Source: an uncultured Clostridia bacterium
GTDB taxonomy: Bacteria; Bacillota; Clostridia; Christensenellales; UBA1242
Direction of reading: 5' to 3'
Assembly: GCA_944332395.1 (NCBI GenBank)
Contig: CALVJV010000023.1
Coordinates: 1 to 41,932, forward strand
DNA length: 41,932 nucleotides
Position numbers and translations under genes: made by a program. The stretch's first letter is position 1. Each line of letters starts with the position of its first letter. Below are positions 8,351 to 18,926 of this stretch, piece by piece. The notes under the pieces were generated by a model, which saw only the letters and a program-made list of their open reading frames with translations, was not told the DNA's origin and ran no database searches.

Positions 8351-8372
8351 CATATTGGAAGAGAGCATAAAA

Positions 8373-9680
8373 ATGAAAGAAAAACAAAATAGAGTAATAA
8401 TAAGTTCAAAAAACCAGGCAATATGTAGAATAGAGGAAAATTGTCGTAATTGTGGAATGTGTAAGTTGGTGTGTAATTCAAAAATGGGCATAGAAGGCTA
8501 TTATGATCTAGAAAAAGAAGATGATAACCCAATTTGCATAAATTGTGGTCAATGTGTTCAAAGTTGTTCATTTAATGCAATTATTCCCAAAAGTGAAATC
8601 CCAATTGTTGAAAAGAATTTACTTGATAGAGAAAAAATTGTTGTTTTTAGTATTGCTCCAGCAGTAAGGGTGGCTTTGGGCGAATTGTTTGGGTTGCAAG
8701 CGGGTGTAAATGTTGAGAAAAAAATAGTAACAGCCCTTAAACTTTTAGGTGCAAAGTATGTTTTTGATATAACCTTTGGTGCTGATTTAACTATTATGGA
8801 AGAGGCAAGTGAGTTTGTGGAGAGGCTAAAAGAAAATTGTAAATTGCCTCAATTTACAAGCTGTTGTCCATCGTGGGTTCAATATTTAGAGACTTTTATG
8901 CCAGAGCTTAAAAACAATCTATCTACAACTAAAAGTCCGGTTGAAATGCAAGGTGCTGTAATAAAAACATATTTTTCAAATGTAAAGGGAATAGACAAAA
9001 ACAAGATTTTTTCAGTTGCGATAGTGCCATGTACAGCAAAAAAGGTAGAAACAAAGGCCGGTTTTATTAATGGTGAAAATTGCTTTGGAGTAGATGCAGT
9101 GTTGACGACAACAGAGTTAGGACAGTTGTTTATTAATAGAGGAATTGATTTAAGGAAAATAAAAAATAGCGAATTTGATAAAATATTAGGGCGTGGATCT
9201 GGTGCTGGAATTATATTTGGGCATTCTGGTGGGGTGATGGAAGCGACATTAAGAACTGTTTTTTATTTATTAAACAAAATAAATCCACCAAAATCTTTTT
9301 TTAATTTGAAAAATGTTGAGAAATCTGGAGCAATAAAAGAGGGAAAAATCGATCTAATTGTTAAGAAAATAGATGTTGCTGTGATTTATGGAACGGCAAA
9401 AGCTAGAGAATATATAATTGCCAATAGAGATAATCTTCCACAATTTATTGAGGTAATGGCGTGCCCATGTGGATGTGTTGGTGGTGGCGGGCAGCTTAAG
9501 TATGTGGCTGGTGAGTTAGAAAATATTATAAATAAGAGAATAAAGGGCTTGAAAGGAATTGATAATAGTAGTATTATTAGAGTAAGTTATAAAAATCCAG
9601 AAATAATAAATATATACAACAACTTTTTGGGTTTTCCATTATCTTCTATTGCAAAAAAAATTTTGCATAAAAAAGATTAA
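8373..9680 (+). CDS. [FeFe] hydrogenase, monomeric type with two 4Fe-4S clusters, 435 aa
   Basis: Catalyses reversible proton reduction to H2, disposing of fermentation electrons. Two ferredoxin clusters sit at the N-terminus (Cys 24, 27, 30, 34 and 55, 58, 61, 65). H-cluster motifs follow: L1 TSCCPSW (161-168), L2 VPCTAKKVE (from 218) and L3 ACPCGCVGGGGQ. All four H-cluster cysteines and the proton-relay Cys before the L1 ligand are present, so it should be active. L3 has a Cys where ACPGGC is usual. No extra ferredoxin or NuoG-type domains are seen. ATG at 8373 was chosen over TTG at 8355 because GGAAGAGAG precedes it. A sigma factor gene follows after 27 nt. Confidence 0.92.
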   Translation: MKEKQNRVIISSKNQAICRIEENCRNCGMCKLVCNSKMGIEGYYDLEKEDDNPICINCGQCVQSCSFNAIIPKSEIPIVEKNLLDREKIVVFSIAPAVRVALGELFGLQAGVNVEKKIVTALKLLGAKYVFDITFGADLTIMEEASEFVERLKENCKLPQFTSCCPSWVQYLETFMPELKNNLSTTKSPVEMQGAVIKTYFSNVKGIDKNKIFSVAIVPCTAKKVETKAGFINGENCFGVDAVLTTTELGQLFINRGIDLRKIKNSEFDKILGRGSGAGIIFGHSGGVMEATLRTVFYLLNKINPPKSFFNLKNVEKSGAIKEGKIDLIVKKIDVAVIYGTAKAREYIIANRDNLPQFIEVMACPCGCVGGGGQLKYVAGELENIINKRIKGLKGIDNSSIIRVSYKNPEIINIYNNFLGFPLSSIAKKILHKKD

Positions 9681-12546: not shown

Positions 12547-13014
12547 CTATTTTATATCTAATATTTTTAGCGAAATTTGACCGCCCGGAGTTGTGGCAAC
12601 CACATTATCGCCAACTTTTCTTCCCATAAGAACTGAGCCAATAGGAGATTGATTGCTTATTATGTTTTTTGTTGCGTCGCTTTCAAGAGAGCCTACAATT
12701 GTGTATTCAATTTCTTCTTGAAATTCATTATCAAAAACTTTGACTTTACTACCAATGTCAACAACGCCTAATTTTCGTTTGCTTGGATCTACGATTTTAG
12801 CAATTCTTAAAGTTTCTTCAAGCATAGAGATTTCTTTTTCTAGCATAGCTTGTTCTGCTCTGGCTGCATCATATTCGGCATTTTCTGACAAATCTCCATA
12901 TTCTCTTGCTGCTTTAATTTGGGCAGCAACCTCGTTACGTCTAACAGATTTTAAGTATTCAAGATGTTTTAATTTTTCTTCACGACCTTCTTTTGTTAAA
13001 AAAACTTCATCCAT
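12547..13014 (-). CDS. greA: Transcription elongation factor GreA, 155 aa
   Basis: Rescues backtracked RNA polymerase by stimulating transcript cleavage. The N-terminal coiled coil has the conserved REYGDLSENAEYDAA tip with its two acidic residues (about 37-51). The C-terminal FKBP-like domain ends with SPIGSVLMGRKVGDNV. Typical length and a GGGAGG ribosome site. It is downstream of, but not tightly linked to, the Rho-like gene. Confidence 0.97.
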   Translation of the reverse strand: MDEVFLTKEGREEKLKHLEYLKSVRRNEVAAQIKAAREYGDLSENAEYDAARAEQAMLEKEISMLEETLRIAKIVDPSKRKLGVVDIGSKVKVFDNEFQEEIEYTIVGSLESDATKNIISNQSPIGSVLMGRKVGDNVVATTPGGQISLKILDIK

Positions 13015-13137: not shown

Positions 13138-13407
13138 ATGTTGGATATGATATCAATTTGGTTTAAGATATATAAAAATCACAAAATAATTAATCAAAAA
13201 ACATTAAAAATAATAGAGCCTTATTCACAAAGTCTCTTGGCTTCAATGATTGAAAAAGTTGTTTTTCAGTTAAGCTTGCCTATGCCAGTCCTTTTATCGA
13301 GTCATTTTTTAAATTATGAAATGTTTAATAGTATGAAATTATATGCACGAGACTTTATTGAAAAAGTAAATTTCGATTTTATTGAAATAGTGAATATTGG
13401 TCATTAG
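13138..13407 (+). CDS. Small conserved-looking protein, about 89 aa, function unknown
   Basis: The product has an N-terminal ISIWFKIYKNHK stretch and a C-terminal FIEKVNFDFIEIVNI. The layout resembles a small hypothetical protein I recall from other Firmicutes (a short WFK.../KDHR start and a FDYLEI-type end), though I cannot name it. The start is uncertain: ATG 13138 or 13147, with TTG further upstream. TATAAT (13121-13126) lies 11 nt before 13138. The 3' end overlaps the convergent Rho-like gene by 29 nt. Confidence 0.5.
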   Translation: MLDMISIWFKIYKNHKIINQKTLKIIEPYSQSLLASMIEKVVFQLSLPMPVLLSSHFLNYEMFNSMKLYARDFIEKVNFDFIEIVNIGH

Positions 13408-14665
13408 ACATGTTTATGGCATCTTTTTTTGTTATTTTATTTTGAATTAGCAATTTTCTTAAATTTTGGGCATTTTGGTAAAATTCTTCAGTTTGGAAAG
13501 TTTCTTGACGTTTGGTAAAAGAAAATTGTGGATCAATAGGTAACTTTATATTGTCTAAGTATAATTCTTCAGAAAGAATGATAACCGTATCAAATATGCT
13601 TTTTAAAGATTCAATAACTATGTTGTCATATTCGGAGTTGTTCTCTGCGAATGCAATTAACGATAAAGACGCGCCATCTGGCTTTGCCCCTGCGGACAAA
13701 AACAATTTTTTAATTTCGCTTATATTTGCCTTTTGTGTGGTAACTAACTCTTGTACAGCATTTTCACAATAAGATTTGATTAACTGGTTCAAAGAATCTA
13801 CTATAATAACCGAATTTTTATTTGCGATACATTTTGCATAGTCAAAAGCTAAATGTGTCAGAGTTGGACAATTTTTGTCGTCCATATCTATAAAAAAACG
13901 CGTATATTGTTTATTTTCATTAATAAAATTTTCAGTTTCTAATAAAATTGTGGTTGGTGCATTAAGAGCGCTTATAACTATATCCTTCGCTGAAGAAAGA
14001 ATTCTTGAATTGCCAATAATAATGGTTTTTCCACCTTTTGCCATAGGGGCAAATACATTTATTGCCGAAAGGTCTTTTCCTTTTAAAATCAATTGCTCTT
14101 TTAGAATTGAAGATTTTTGGCTGTCATATTTATATGAAGGTTGTTCGGTAGGAACGACTTCGGTTAAAACATAAAATCCATTTTGGTTTAAACTTGCTTT
14201 ACCCAATATGCGTGTTCCAGAAATTATTTTATGCCTTTTTATAATCTCATCAGGGACAAAGCATATATTACTCCAGACGCCATTATCTTCGCCAATTATA
14301 GAATTTGAATTGCTATAAAAAAATCCTTCAACATTTATTGTTTGAGTTCTTCCTGAATCATAATAAGAAGATGAAGAGGCAACTAAATATTGAGGTTGGA
14401 AAGAAAAAGAATCGTTTTTTTGAAGTTTGCTTAGTATGTCAATAAAAACCTCTTTTCGGCTTTTTGTAATTGATGTTGGCCGGCCTTTTGTTGACTCTGT
14501 TTTTGGTGGTTCCTTGCCATAAATAACGGCTTTTATATGTTCGATTAATTTGGATTTGTTATACTTTGTATAACCATACACACCAATCGAAAAAGCCAAT
14601 TTTCGAAGATCTCTAATTCCTAAAATATTTAAGTTTGCTTCTTTAAGATTGTTGTATTGAGTCAT
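13379..14665 (-). CDS. Rho-like protein lacking the Walker A ATPase motif, 428 aa
   Basis: The order is that of transcription terminator Rho. A Rho N-terminal helical domain (LNILGIRDLRKLAFSIGV, about 12-29, and KSKLIEHIKA) is followed by a cold-shock-like RNA-binding part (about 105-170, VEGFF...SNICFVPDEIIKRHKI) and the RecA-like core from about 195. In the core, NVFAPMAKGG aligns with Rho's DLFAPIGKGQ, but the expected P-loop (PPKAGKT) reads GNSRILSSA (218-226), without GKT. The Walker B Asp remains (VIIVDS, 286-291) and an Arg is kept near the arginine-finger site (TKRQE). The reading frame is intact and the ribosome site (AAGGA) good, so it is a maintained but probably ATP-hydrolysis-deficient paralogue. 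Its RNA-binding parts could still compete with, modulate or join a canonical Rho encoded elsewhere. Confidence 0.8.
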   Translation of the reverse strand: MTQYNNLKEANLNILGIRDLRKLAFSIGVYGYTKYNKSKLIEHIKAVIYGKEPPKTESTKGRPTSITKSRKEVFIDILSKLQKNDSFSFQPQYLVASSSSYYDSGRTQTINVEGFFYSNSNSIIGEDNGVWSNICFVPDEIIKRHKIISGTRILGKASLNQNGFYVLTEVVPTEQPSYKYDSQKSSILKEQLILKGKDLSAINVFAPMAKGGKTIIIGNSRILSSAKDIVISALNAPTTILLETENFINENKQYTRFFIDMDDKNCPTLTHLAFDYAKCIANKNSVIIVDSLNQLIKSYCENAVQELVTTQKANISEIKKLFLSAGAKPDGASLSLIAFAENNSEYDNIVIESLKSIFDTVIILSEELYLDNIKLPIDPQFSFTKRQETFQTEEFYQNAQNLRKLLIQNKITKKDAINMSNDQYSLFQ

Positions 14666-14768
14666 AATATTCCTTTGTTAAAATTGTTGCTTTTTGTAGA
14701 GTTTTGTCAATTTCTGTTAATTAATAATACATTATTGATTTGGTTTTTGCAAGAATTTTTATTTGTTT

Positions 14769-15321
14769 TTATTTTTTGTCAAAGAAATTATTGATCAACT
14801 CATATAACTTAGATTTATATTTTATTGTTTGAGAATTGGTATTTGATGCATCAACAAAACATAAAGGTGGAAACATTACACACCACCAATTATCTCCAGA
14901 TCCAGAACCCAAATCAATAATTAGGGCCTCGTATGTGCCGGCTTCTAAGGTTATTCCGGCATATGTTCTAGCTGGAAATAGTTCAGTTTTTATCTTGGCA
15001 TTTGCGGTGTAAAAGAAATTATTCTTTTTTAGTGTTGAATTGGCAATTTCAGTAATGTCATCTAAATGCTCGATGATTGTGGCTTTTGCAGTATTTTGAT
15101 TTTGGCTTGATGCAATTATAGGAGTTAAATATTCAACAATTTTTTCTTTCACTTTATATTTTACGGCTTGATCTGTTTGGGAATTGCTGTTTGCACGGAT
15201 ATGAATACGCAAATAATCGTTGTTTTGTTCGTATTTTACTTTATCTTTATTTAATATTATAACAGCGGTCAAAGAAATTACAGCGACCGAAAGAAAAATA
15301 AAGAAAATTGATTTTTTCATT
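14769..15321 (-). CDS. spoIIR: Stage II sporulation protein R, 183 aa
   Basis: SpoIIR is made in the forespore and exported to trigger SpoIIGA processing of pro-sigma-E in the mother cell. An N-terminal signal/anchor helix (about 4-22) is followed by the family motifs LRIHIRANSNSQTDQ, ELFPARTYAGITL, AGTYEALIIDLGSGSG and DNWWCVMFPPLCF. Full length. The ATG at 15321 with GAGGTGA upstream was preferred to a longer frame starting upstream. Strong marker of endospore formation. Confidence 0.95.
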
Positions 15322-15339
15322 GTTTTCACCTCATCATAA

Positions 15340-15369
15340 AGTATTGGCAAAAAAATCAATAAAAAACAA
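15340..15369 (-). promoter_or_regulatory. Possible sigma-F promoter of spoIIR
   Basis: On the minus strand GCCAATACTT (15349-15340) matches the sigma-F -10 pattern GGnnAnAnTw at all but one defined base, and a GTTTT lies about 15 nt further upstream (pattern GywTA). spoIIR is sigma-F dependent in Bacillus subtilis. The AT-rich setting makes a chance match possible. Confidence 0.35.
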
Positions 15370-15406: not shown

Positions 15407-16849
15407 TTAGAATTGAGCTAAAGCTCTTTTATATAAAACAATTTTTCTGTCTTGAGGCATTATATCTTCTAAATTGGAATTTTGTTCTTTTAGAATTTGT
15501 GGATTGACTTTTAAGTCTTTTGCTATTGAAAATATTGTTTGTCCTGATACTGCTTGATATACAATTACAGACTTATTGTCTTGTTCTAATTCTGGGCCAA
15601 CCTCTATTGAACTGGTGTATAATTCATAACATTCTGTGATTTGAATATTTGAGCAAATAACTGCGAGTTCAACATCTACTTCTTTGGCTTTCTTTTTAGA
15701 AAAAGATTTTATAATTATATTAGAAATAATGTCTGGGTTGATTTGATTAATAGGACTAGATAGAATTACAGATTCTAAATTATCCGTTTCGGCATGTTTA
15801 TAAATAATTGTGCACTCAACAACGGCACCTTTTTCATTTTTGGTGACAAATGGTGATGTTACTGCCAATATAGAGCCAAGGTTTACCGTTTTTTCTTTGG
15901 TCGTTAAAGTTATTGTTAATTCATTTTCAACACTTTGTTTTGCAACAAACTTTTCATTTAAAAATCCCGTTGATGAAATTATAAGTTCATTCTTATCTGA
16001 ATATGCGTCTTCAAGCAAATCAATAGATTTATTAGCAAAGACTAAAGCTTCTACTTTTAAGGTTGCATTTATGTTTAGTATTCCACTTGTTCCTGATTGA
16101 GAAATTGAAGCAACGCATGAATCTATTTTTAAATTTGCATCTACTAAGTTTTCGGGGCGAGCTCCCATTGCGGATATTTCGCTTGAAAATTCAATTCTTT
16201 TAAAAGTGTTTTTTATATTTCCTTCTAGTTCGGAACATAGCCAAACCAAAAGTTCACCATCAACGATAATGACATCATCAACTACGTTGGTTTTTGTTAG
16301 ATTGCAGGCACTTTCGCATTTTAATATGCGATCTGCAGATAGATCTGATTCATCAACAATTAAAATCTTATCATCTGCCACGGCAGAAAGTGTTTGTACT
16401 TCTATATTTTTTACTTTTTCAAAAATTTCTGAACTTCCGGGTTTAACGCCTACAATTTCATTACAAACAAGCGTATTAATTTTAAATTCAAACGTAGAAT
16501 TAATTATGATTTCGGTTTCTGATAGGATTTGTGCGTTGGTTTCTTTTTCTTCGCAAACAATAAAAAATTGCGAGCCCTGAATGTTCTCAAATGTTGTAGA
16601 GTACTCTATAGTTTTTATAATAGATTTTAGTTTGTTTTCGTTGTCGAGATATAATATTTGTAGATTTGCGTTTCCAATAACAGAAAGATTGTTTGCTATC
16701 AATTCATTGTTTTTTGTCGTAGGTTTGCAACTGATAGCAATAATTTTATTTGGATTTTCTGCTTCGACTTTTGTTTGAAAATTATAATATTCATTTGAAA
16801 GATTTATCTTGTGGTAGGTTTTTGTGTTGGGTGTTTGTTCGAATGTCAT
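15407..16849 (-). CDS. SPOCS (DUF3794) domain protein with C-terminal LysM, 480 aa
   Basis: Most of the protein is beta-rich repeats of SPOCS type; the segments around residues 30-130, 165-280 and 300-410 show the alternating hydrophobic pattern and EVD-like cores. A LysM peptidoglycan-binding domain closes it (about 430-478: YQAVSGQTIFSIAKDLKVNPQ). SPOCS-LysM proteins of Clostridia are linked to the spore coat or cortex. No signal peptide is seen, as expected for a coat protein made in the mother-cell cytoplasm. GGAGG ribosome site. It lies 58 nt downstream of veg and 85 nt upstream of spoIIR, forming a small sporulation cluster. Confidence 0.88.
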   Translation of the reverse strand: MTFEQTPNTKTYHKINLSNEYYNFQTKVEAENPNKIIAISCKPTTKNNELIANNLSVIGNANLQILYLDNENKLKSIIKTIEYSTTFENIQGSQFFIVCEEKETNAQILSETEIIINSTFEFKINTLVCNEIVGVKPGSSEIFEKVKNIEVQTLSAVADDKILIVDESDLSADRILKCESACNLTKTNVVDDVIIVDGELLVWLCSELEGNIKNTFKRIEFSSEISAMGARPENLVDANLKIDSCVASISQSGTSGILNINATLKVEALVFANKSIDLLEDAYSDKNELIISSTGFLNEKFVAKQSVENELTITLTTKEKTVNLGSILAVTSPFVTKNEKGAVVECTIIYKHAETDNLESVILSSPINQINPDIISNIIIKSFSKKKAKEVDVELAVICSNIQITECYELYTSSIEVGPELEQDNKSVIVYQAVSGQTIFSIAKDLKVNPQILKEQNSNLEDIMPQDRKIVLYKRALAQF

Positions 16850-16907: not shown

Positions 16908-17159
16908 CTAATTTTTATTTTCTATTTTTTTTATCTTAACATTTCCGCATAAAACATCTGAATAAGAACAGGAAATTTTATTTGGAATATGAGTTTCGCC
17001 CACATTCACAACGAATACACTTGGATACATGTTTTCTATTGTTCCCACTAATTTTTCTATTTTTTTTCTACCATGACTAACTTGGACTTTAATAGGGTGT
17101 CCTTTTAAGGCTTCAATAGAACTAATTATATCTTTTATTGTCTGATTTACTTTTCTCAT
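16908..17159 (-). CDS. veg: Veg family protein (DUF1021), 83 aa
   Basis: A small SH3-like barrel protein, recognisable by IKDIISSIEALKGHPIKVQ, the SHGRKK segment and GTIENMYPSVFVV. Veg is abundant in vegetative Bacillus and has been linked to biofilm gene control and to spore outgrowth. Good GGAG site. First gene of the veg-SPOCS-spoIIR run. Confidence 0.95.
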   Translation of the reverse strand: MRKVNQTIKDIISSIEALKGHPIKVQVSHGRKKIEKLVGTIENMYPSVFVVNVGETHIPNKISCSYSDVLCGNVKIKKIENKN

Positions 17160-17582: not shown

Positions 17583-18926
17583 ATGTTGAAAAGGCATTTG
17601 AATAAATTCATGAACAATATTTGTCCTCCGTGTCCCAATGATGTGTGGCTGTATTTTTCATGTTTAATAGCTCTTATTCCTGTTTTTTATTCTATTTTTG
17701 ACGGCATGATAAGTTATATGACATTGAATTTTCTTTTTGGGTTAGCCATTTTTGTTTATTTAGTGTGGCGGCTTATAACAAAACTAATTCAAAAGGAAAA
17801 AATAGAATTCACGCGGAATCCACTGGTGTATTTTTTTGCTCTTTTCATTTTTTTGATATTTTTAGGTGCGTTTTTTAGCATTGACATTAAGGCGTCATGG
17901 TTTGGTATGACAAACGAAGGCCATACTCGTGAAAGTGTTTGGCAATTTATATTCTATTTTCTTTTTGGTGTGGTGGCTTATAATTTAAATTCAAATAACA
18001 AAAAATGGATATTATCATTAATTGTTTTGTTGTCATGTTTCTATGTTATATTGGGATTCTGTGATCCTTATGGAAAGGTAATTGCTGGGTTTTCAAGTAA
18101 TTCCTATAAATATTCGCTTATGTTTTTTAATCCAAATCACTCGGCTTATTTAATTTGTGCTACGGCAATGCTTGCTGGAGTCAAGATGGTTTATGCCAAC
18201 AAGCTATCACAAAAAATTCTCTGGGGAGCTTGTTATTTTATTCAATCTGTATTTTTAATCATGAATTCGTCGACCGGCCCCATTTTGGCATTGATAATTA
18301 GTTTGGTTGGATTTGTAATATATATATTTATTTATGATAGTAGAAAAATTAACACTACGGGCATTCTTGTGTTTTTATTTGTTGTATCGTGGCTTTTAAT
18401 AGATTTTACTCCCAAAATTGCTGTCCAGAAAAGGGAGCCTTATTATTTACATGAACAAATTATACAACCATTTTTTGCGATTTTTGGCAGGGAAATGGTT
18501 TTCACAAAAATAGATGGCAAGGGAATTTCCGTTGTATTGCAGAATGAAAATATTGTAGAAAGGTTAGAAATGTGGAAAAAATGTTTTGTCAATATGATAG
18601 ACCGTCCATTACTAGGCACTGGGGTTGGAACATTTAAAACTGCAAATCCAGAATTTGGTCTTACAAACCCGCATAATGAAATTTTACAATATGGCGCAAC
18701 TTTTGGTATTCCTGCAATGATAAGCTATTTAGCTGGAATTTTAGGTGTTTTTTTGTTTATAACTAAAAATAAAAAAAATAAAAATGAATGGGCTATAATT
18801 TCGGGATTTTCTGTTTTTTGCTATTTTATAAGCTCTTTATTTGGAGCCACAATACCAGGGGTTTTAGCTGTCTTTTCGTTAATTTTAGGCATTTCGGTTA
18901 AGGGGGCTACAGGAACAAAGAATTAA
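17583..18926 (+). CDS. O-antigen ligase / polymerase-like membrane protein, 447 aa
   Basis: A polytopic protein with about 10-12 membrane helices. A large loop (about 275-360) carries the Wzy_C hallmarks: ERLEMWKKCFVNMIDRPLLG, GTGVGTFK and NPHNEILQYGATFGIPAM. Such proteins move or polymerise lipid-linked glycans on the outer membrane leaflet; in Gram-positives the product may be a cell-wall or capsular polymer. No glycosyltransferases are adjacent, so the substrate is open. The ribosome site is weak. Confidence 0.85.
   Translation: MLKRHLNKFMNNICPPCPNDVWLYFSCLIALIPVFYSIFDGMISYMTLNFLFGLAIFVYLVWRLITKLIQKEKIEFTRNPLVYFFALFIFLIFLGAFFSIDIKASWFGMTNEGHTRESVWQFIFYFLFGVVAYNLNSNNKKWILSLIVLLSCFYVILGFCDPYGKVIAGFSSNSYKYSLMFFNPNHSAYLICATAMLAGVKMVYANKLSQKILWGACYFIQSVFLIMNSSTGPILALIISLVGFVIYIFIYDSRKINTTGILVFLFVVSWLLIDFTPKIAVQKREPYYLHEQIIQPFFAIFGREMVFTKIDGKGISVVLQNENIVERLEMWKKCFVNMIDRPLLGTGVGTFKTANPEFGLTNPHNEILQYGATFGIPAMISYLAGILGVFLFITKNKKNKNEWAIISGFSVFCYFISSLFGATIPGVLAVFSLILGISVKGATGTKN

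Follow-up and report, generated by a model that had tools for sequence, protein, structure and literature searches.

A motor-dead descendant of Rho as the single Rho of a family of Clostridia

The 41,932-nucleotide stretch of DNA analysed here (the window) carries on its minus strand, at 13379..14665, a gene that we identify with high confidence as the single rho of its lineage, without a second copy, its motor dead and the gene itself under selection. The best explanation, which we regard as probable, is that its product descends from Rho and has been maintained as a nucleic-acid-binding protein that works independently of ATP.

The gene reads as an uninterrupted frame of 428 amino acids from an ATG start, the span including the stop codon, while the opposite (plus) strand over the same positions contains many stops and no open frame. 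The sequence AAAGGA, resembling a ribosome-binding (SD-like) site, lies 5 bases ahead of the ATG (14671..14676, minus strand), in agreement with an earlier note on this DNA that had described an intact frame with a good ribosome site. That note had also placed the gene between greA and spoIIR, and Pfam supports both neighbours: greA is downstream (12547..13014; GreA_GreB) and spoIIR upstream (14769..15359; Spore_II_R), followed further upstream by a SipL/SPOCS-domain spore protein (15407..16849; SipL) and veg (16908..17159; VEG), all on the minus strand. Elsewhere in the window, the plus strand encodes a short [FeFe]-hydrogenase-like protein (8355–9680; Fe_hyd_lg_C and Fe_hyd_SSU), with a small sigma-70-like gene just downstream, and an O-antigen-ligase-type membrane protein (17583–18926; Wzy_C match).

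The 428-residue protein is homologous to Rho, because profile, PDB sequence and model-structure matches all lead there. It matched NCBIfam PRK09376 over residues 10–418 (E 1.2e-10), and its PDB sequence match was Thermotoga maritima Rho (E 2e-7). The top structural matches of its AlphaFold model, built on a shallow alignment of 15 rows and of moderate quality (pLDDT 68, pTM 0.63), were solved Rho structures, with a Foldseek E of 7e-19 to 3l0o and a highest VIA-align score, to Mycobacterium tuberculosis Rho, of Z 29.5 on the DALI scale (rmsd 3.2 over 320 residues). Profile, model and structure searches agree on the domain order and overall fold of Rho, as the earlier note had read them, but the likeness that it saw in the RNA-binding half holds at the level of fold only: the alignment shows the GYGFLR RNA site to be lost, residues of the GFGF type are not found in the OB region, and Pfam Rho_RNA_bind gave no match in the window protein. 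By model and column frequencies, the OB-fold region spans residues ~109–171 (14153..14341, minus strand) and does not retain the primary RNA-binding residues.

Within its family the window protein is among the more divergent members, with a long tree branch. Its putative Rho_N domain, an SAP-like helix-extension-helix at residues 12–45 (14531..14632, minus strand), scored below the Pfam cut-off (PF07498; E 0.0045, 17.4 bits against 24.9), its GRP-type basic motif, located through family column frequencies, reads GRPTS where relatives have GRPPK (residues 61–65; 14471..14485, minus strand), and its TIGR00767 score of ~28–29 bits did not reach the cut-off of 509.

The ATPase core of the protein has been taken apart. 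In the model, a RecA-type strand (213–218) is joined directly to a helix (220–233) with no loop between them (13967..14029, minus strand), so that, as modelled, the P-loop is physically missing, beyond mere mutation. No Walker A motif (GxxxxGK[ST]) is present; GNSRILSSA (residues 218–226; 13988–14014, minus strand) stands in place of the GKT-type P-loop, just as had been noticed from the letters. A Walker-B-like aspartate, Asp290 in VDSLN (13796..13798, minus strand), has been kept, again as described. An arginine does lie next to the finger position, but the position itself is lysine: canonical STRREE aligns with FTKRQE (TKRQE, residues 384–388; 13502..13516, minus strand). Neither the catalytic Glu nor the arginine finger was found.

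Asp290, a GGKT string at residues 211–214 and the three members of one genus that retain a P-loop might nevertheless suggest that the protein is still an ATPase, its nucleotide site being merely unusual. We rejected GGKT as an alternative P-loop since it sits at the start of the strand, ahead of the strand end, and the single-chain model, a Rho fold, has no loop between strand and helix. Even the members with a P-loop have another residue in place of the catalytic Glu, and we consider continued ATPase activity very improbable.

The same dismantling extends across the family. A true GxxxxGK[ST] loop was present in 3 of 145 distinct complete family proteins, all from genus g2; regular-expression matches to GK[ST] in the window protein, L227, L235 and L243 are not P-loops and were excluded from this count. 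The catalytic Glu column is retained in ~3% of family proteins, the arginine-finger-region columns are missing in ~80%, and the C-terminus is truncated in most members. Column frequencies further indicate that the OB primary RNA-binding residues and the RNA-gripping loops of the ring have for the most part disappeared; RNA binding in the classical Rho manner can therefore not be taken for granted. Because the P-loop keepers already lack the catalytic Glu (canonical IDERPEE reads LDKRPED), hydrolysis was probably lost before the P-loop. Judged from the aligned sequences, P-loop, catalytic Glu, RNA-translocating loops and arginine finger are gone in nearly all members of the family.

No second or canonical Rho was found in the window genome by profile searches, nor did any of 197 genomes (~1 Mb each) from its family of gut-type Clostridia contain a protein above the TIGR00767 cut-off, the best reaching 191 bits against 509. 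The search itself works, since 144 of 248 genomes of the order and 97 of 118 genomes of the class pass the same cut-off. A family-derived profile recovered a degenerate Rho ORF in 183 of the 197 family genomes; it was present in all 42 genera and in 127 of 132 high-quality genomes. Named public relatives include Clostridia and Christensenellaceae metagenome-assembled genomes and Candidatus Onthoplasma (Christensenellales in NCBI), and it is from these that the analysis inferred the order for the window. One scan of viral contigs for a phage origin returned no relatives.

The gene is therefore not the Rho paralogue that the earlier note had supposed, for neither its own genome nor any of the 197 holds a canonical Rho. 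That note had further suggested an anti-Rho or Rho-modulating protein; a dead-motor Rho fold could in principle poison Rho hexamers, but since no Rho target was found in the genome or in the 197 family genomes, this idea is contradicted and we hold it to be extremely improbable. Orthology with canonical rho is supported instead by the single copy and by gene position: sleB-ypeB lie three genes upstream of the canonical rho of genome G039, and the order sleB-ypeB-degenerate rho recurs in many family genera. The shared position concerns the canonical rho of G039 only.

We then have to ask whether the gene is simply decaying. Rapid sequence drift and shortened C-termini are compatible with a pseudogene in progress, as is the complete absence of Rho from genomes G046 and G235 (family f13) and from other families of the class. 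Against this, the top ORFs in the regions retrieved from sampled genera were intact at about 330–440 amino acids. Although dS was saturated in many pairs, P-loop-less gene pairs with dS below 1 gave dN/dS of 0.055–0.11, with the C-terminal (RecA) half similarly constrained. For canonical Rho within the order the ratios were 0.07 and 0.16, plus one noisy pair at 0.37. On ratios of ~0.05–0.11, the degenerate Rho is kept by purifying selection and a pseudogene is excluded; decay is contradicted and, in our judgement, highly improbable. The earlier note's argument for selection on the full-length frame is thereby borne out. So is its proposal of a non-ATPase function: loss of Walker A in an intact frame under selection leads to a maintained function of that kind, which is well supported by the sequences compared.

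Motor loss has also occurred elsewhere in the order, with degenerate Rho in at least five other families (f4, f15, f29, f30 and f32). A tree of Rho proteins, in which branches are long and the exact placement of the window protein is unsure, required the P-loop state to change five times or more and separated f4 and f15 well from the window family, f1; on this tree, degeneration in f4 and f15 was clearly independent of that in f1. One family row of the tree, L141, carried a wrong label (degenerate), with no effect on the count of P-loops. As the P-loop keepers of f1 are nested within genus g2, several losses must have happened within f1 alone if the P-loop was never regained. In family f4, the P-loop is lost in genus g38 (L072, L073 and L076), and the proteins of g105 and g128 (L068–L070) are partly degenerate; the degenerate f4 proteins retain a long N-terminal insertion. 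Families f29, f30 and f32 have degenerate single-copy Rho proteins that are very divergent (L251–L254, L256–L260, L262 and L263). The loop of L251 still reads GTRQSGKQ.

Genus g49 of family f15 includes canonical Rho in genomes G048 and G426, four relatives that are degenerate with a P-loop, and G334, in which the loop is lost. Set side by side, L079 (from G334), L071, L074, L077 and L078 versus L066 and L067 form a series of stepwise motor loss within one genus. The nearly complete genomes G046 and G235 yielded neither Rho nor a degenerate remnant, an instance of complete loss. Among 15 genomes of the class outside the order that lack canonical Rho, the family profile, checked against two genomes with canonical Rho that served as positive controls, gave at most weak matches to the ATPase part with a P-loop, which are probably F-type ATPase. 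As far as these profiles reach, Rho elsewhere in the class is either canonical or gone.

Where conservation sits in the protein suggests what it may do. Averaged over the canonical Rho proteins of the order, conservation was 0.49 in Rho_N, 0.62 in OB and 0.86 in RecA; in the family it was 0.48, 0.30 and 0.28, respectively, the comparison being between 18 canonical and 145 family proteins that differ in depth. In these alignments, conservation is inverted, the Rho_N and GRPxK N-terminus being kept as in canonical Rho while OB and RecA have drifted. Most of the best-conserved columns are N-terminal (R19, G26, P30, T31 and the GRP-K motif, in the numbering of L006 or L020), with a GRP motif in 134 of 145 family proteins (G 98%, R 96% and P 92% by column) and a median N-terminal net charge of +5. 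Among 33 family members searched at E≤1, Pfam Rho_N was matched in 32, Rho_RNA_bind in 25 (weakly) and ATP-synt_ab in 14.

With conservation so concentrated in the N-terminus (Rho_N and GRP-K), nucleic-acid binding there is the simplest reading. The Rho_N module, together with the basic GRPxK motif, would bind either AT-rich DNA or RNA as it emerges, while the still Rho-folded body of OB and RecA may provide the framework on which the protein self-assembles or touches RNA polymerase. Intrinsic terminators would then produce the transcript ends, leaving the protein to modulate transcription or RNA passively.

Two narrower versions of such a role deserve weighing. The protein might be a DNA-binding, nucleoid-type protein, its SAP-like Rho_N and AT-hook-like GRP motif on AT-rich DNA and the remainder an oligomerization body. 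The Rho_N/GRP region is indeed the best conserved, a few members have weak SAP-family matches (Fan1_SAP, SAP_new25 and Ish1) and the genome is AT-rich (27–33% GC in the window). However, ordinary Rho of the order has the same N-terminus and need not bind DNA there, and AT_hook was not among the 25 Pfam families listed for family members; we regard this version as a possible but doubtful one. Alternatively, a passive Rho might bind RNA polymerase and transcripts and cause allosteric termination or pausing without translocation, consistent with the kept Rho fold of the model and with purifying selection that extends to the RecA half. Support might also be drawn from the debate over motor-uncoupled Rho action in M. 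tuberculosis (PMC4499133), yet the same paper reports ATP-dependent motor activity for M. tuberculosis Rho, and the primary RNA-binding residues and RNA-gripping loops are mostly lost in the family, making a passive Rho unlikely.

The earlier note had also raised transcription control around sporulation. The sporulation neighbourhood is real: the order veg-SPOCS-spoIIR-sleB-ypeB-degenerate rho is found in many family genera, and another clade has spmA-spmB-mazE-mazF-degenerate rho (L101–L109; mazEF-type toxin–antitoxin pair), the names of neighbours in relatives other than veg, SPOCS and spoIIR coming from reading the sequences and not from a family search. In several genera (L100, L113, L115 and L139), ORFs of >2,000 amino acids adjoin the degenerate rho. 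In Bacillus subtilis, a rho-null mutant is viable, Rho loss raises sporulation and Rho overproduction lowers it (PMC5540618), from which it follows that loss of the motor is tolerable and the sporulation idea worth testing, but no more.

A regulator tied to sporulation, kept for its place in the spoIIR/sleB/ypeB or spmAB cluster, would accord with the recurrent gene order and with the B. subtilis effect of Rho level. On the other side, the gap from the degenerate rho to the upstream gene is mostly 50–240 bases, neighbours vary between genera, the gene in other genera adjoins a giant ORF or mazEF, and the canonical rho of G039 is similarly placed. Because of these gaps and changing neighbours, a role in sporulation is only a possibility, and retention on account of the cluster seems distinctly unlikely.

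Returning to the nucleic-acid-binding reading, we favour by a little the broader view that in f1, as well as by parallel change in several related families, a hexameric ATP-driven terminator became a selected, motor-free nucleic-acid-binding protein, through a second, motor-independent function of Rho that outlived termination. Discussions of Rho generally treat it as a motor. A motor-less clade under strong selection, together with its intermediates (one genus of f1 and g49 of f15), amounts to a natural separation-of-function experiment; it suggests that Rho can have a useful job needing no motor, points to a Rho_N module with a function of its own, and opens the way to tests of a Rho role that needs no motor. 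A further implication is that these genome-reduced Clostridia bearing spore genes live without Rho-driven termination. No description of an ATPase-dead Rho family was found in the literature searched, which was limited to non-subscription journals.

The system closest to the family is Rho itself (TIGR00767; PF07498/PF07497/ATP-synt_ab), which it resembles in domain order, fold (Z up to 29.5), Rho_N, single copy and, in a relative, gene position. Unlike Rho, nearly all members of the family lack the P-loop and the catalytic Glu, the arginine finger and the translocation loops are lost, as are most RNA-site residues, the C-terminus is shorter in most members, and the window protein scores far under the TIGR00767 cut-off. 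NCBIfam NF041509 (‘Rho, short form’; paralog_Rho2) matched the window protein weakly (20 bits, cut-off 628) and is named as a paralogue, whereas here we found a sole Rho-derived protein. M. tuberculosis Rho is likewise divergent; its NTPase activity is reported to be low (PMC8828861), and its N-terminal region suffices for RNA binding (PMC4167861), but it remains an NTP-driven motor (PMC4499133). SAP and AT-hook-like modules share with the best-conserved part of the family protein a helix-extension-helix and a basic GRP motif, but in this family the module is attached to a Rho body, and its binding to nucleic acid is predicted.
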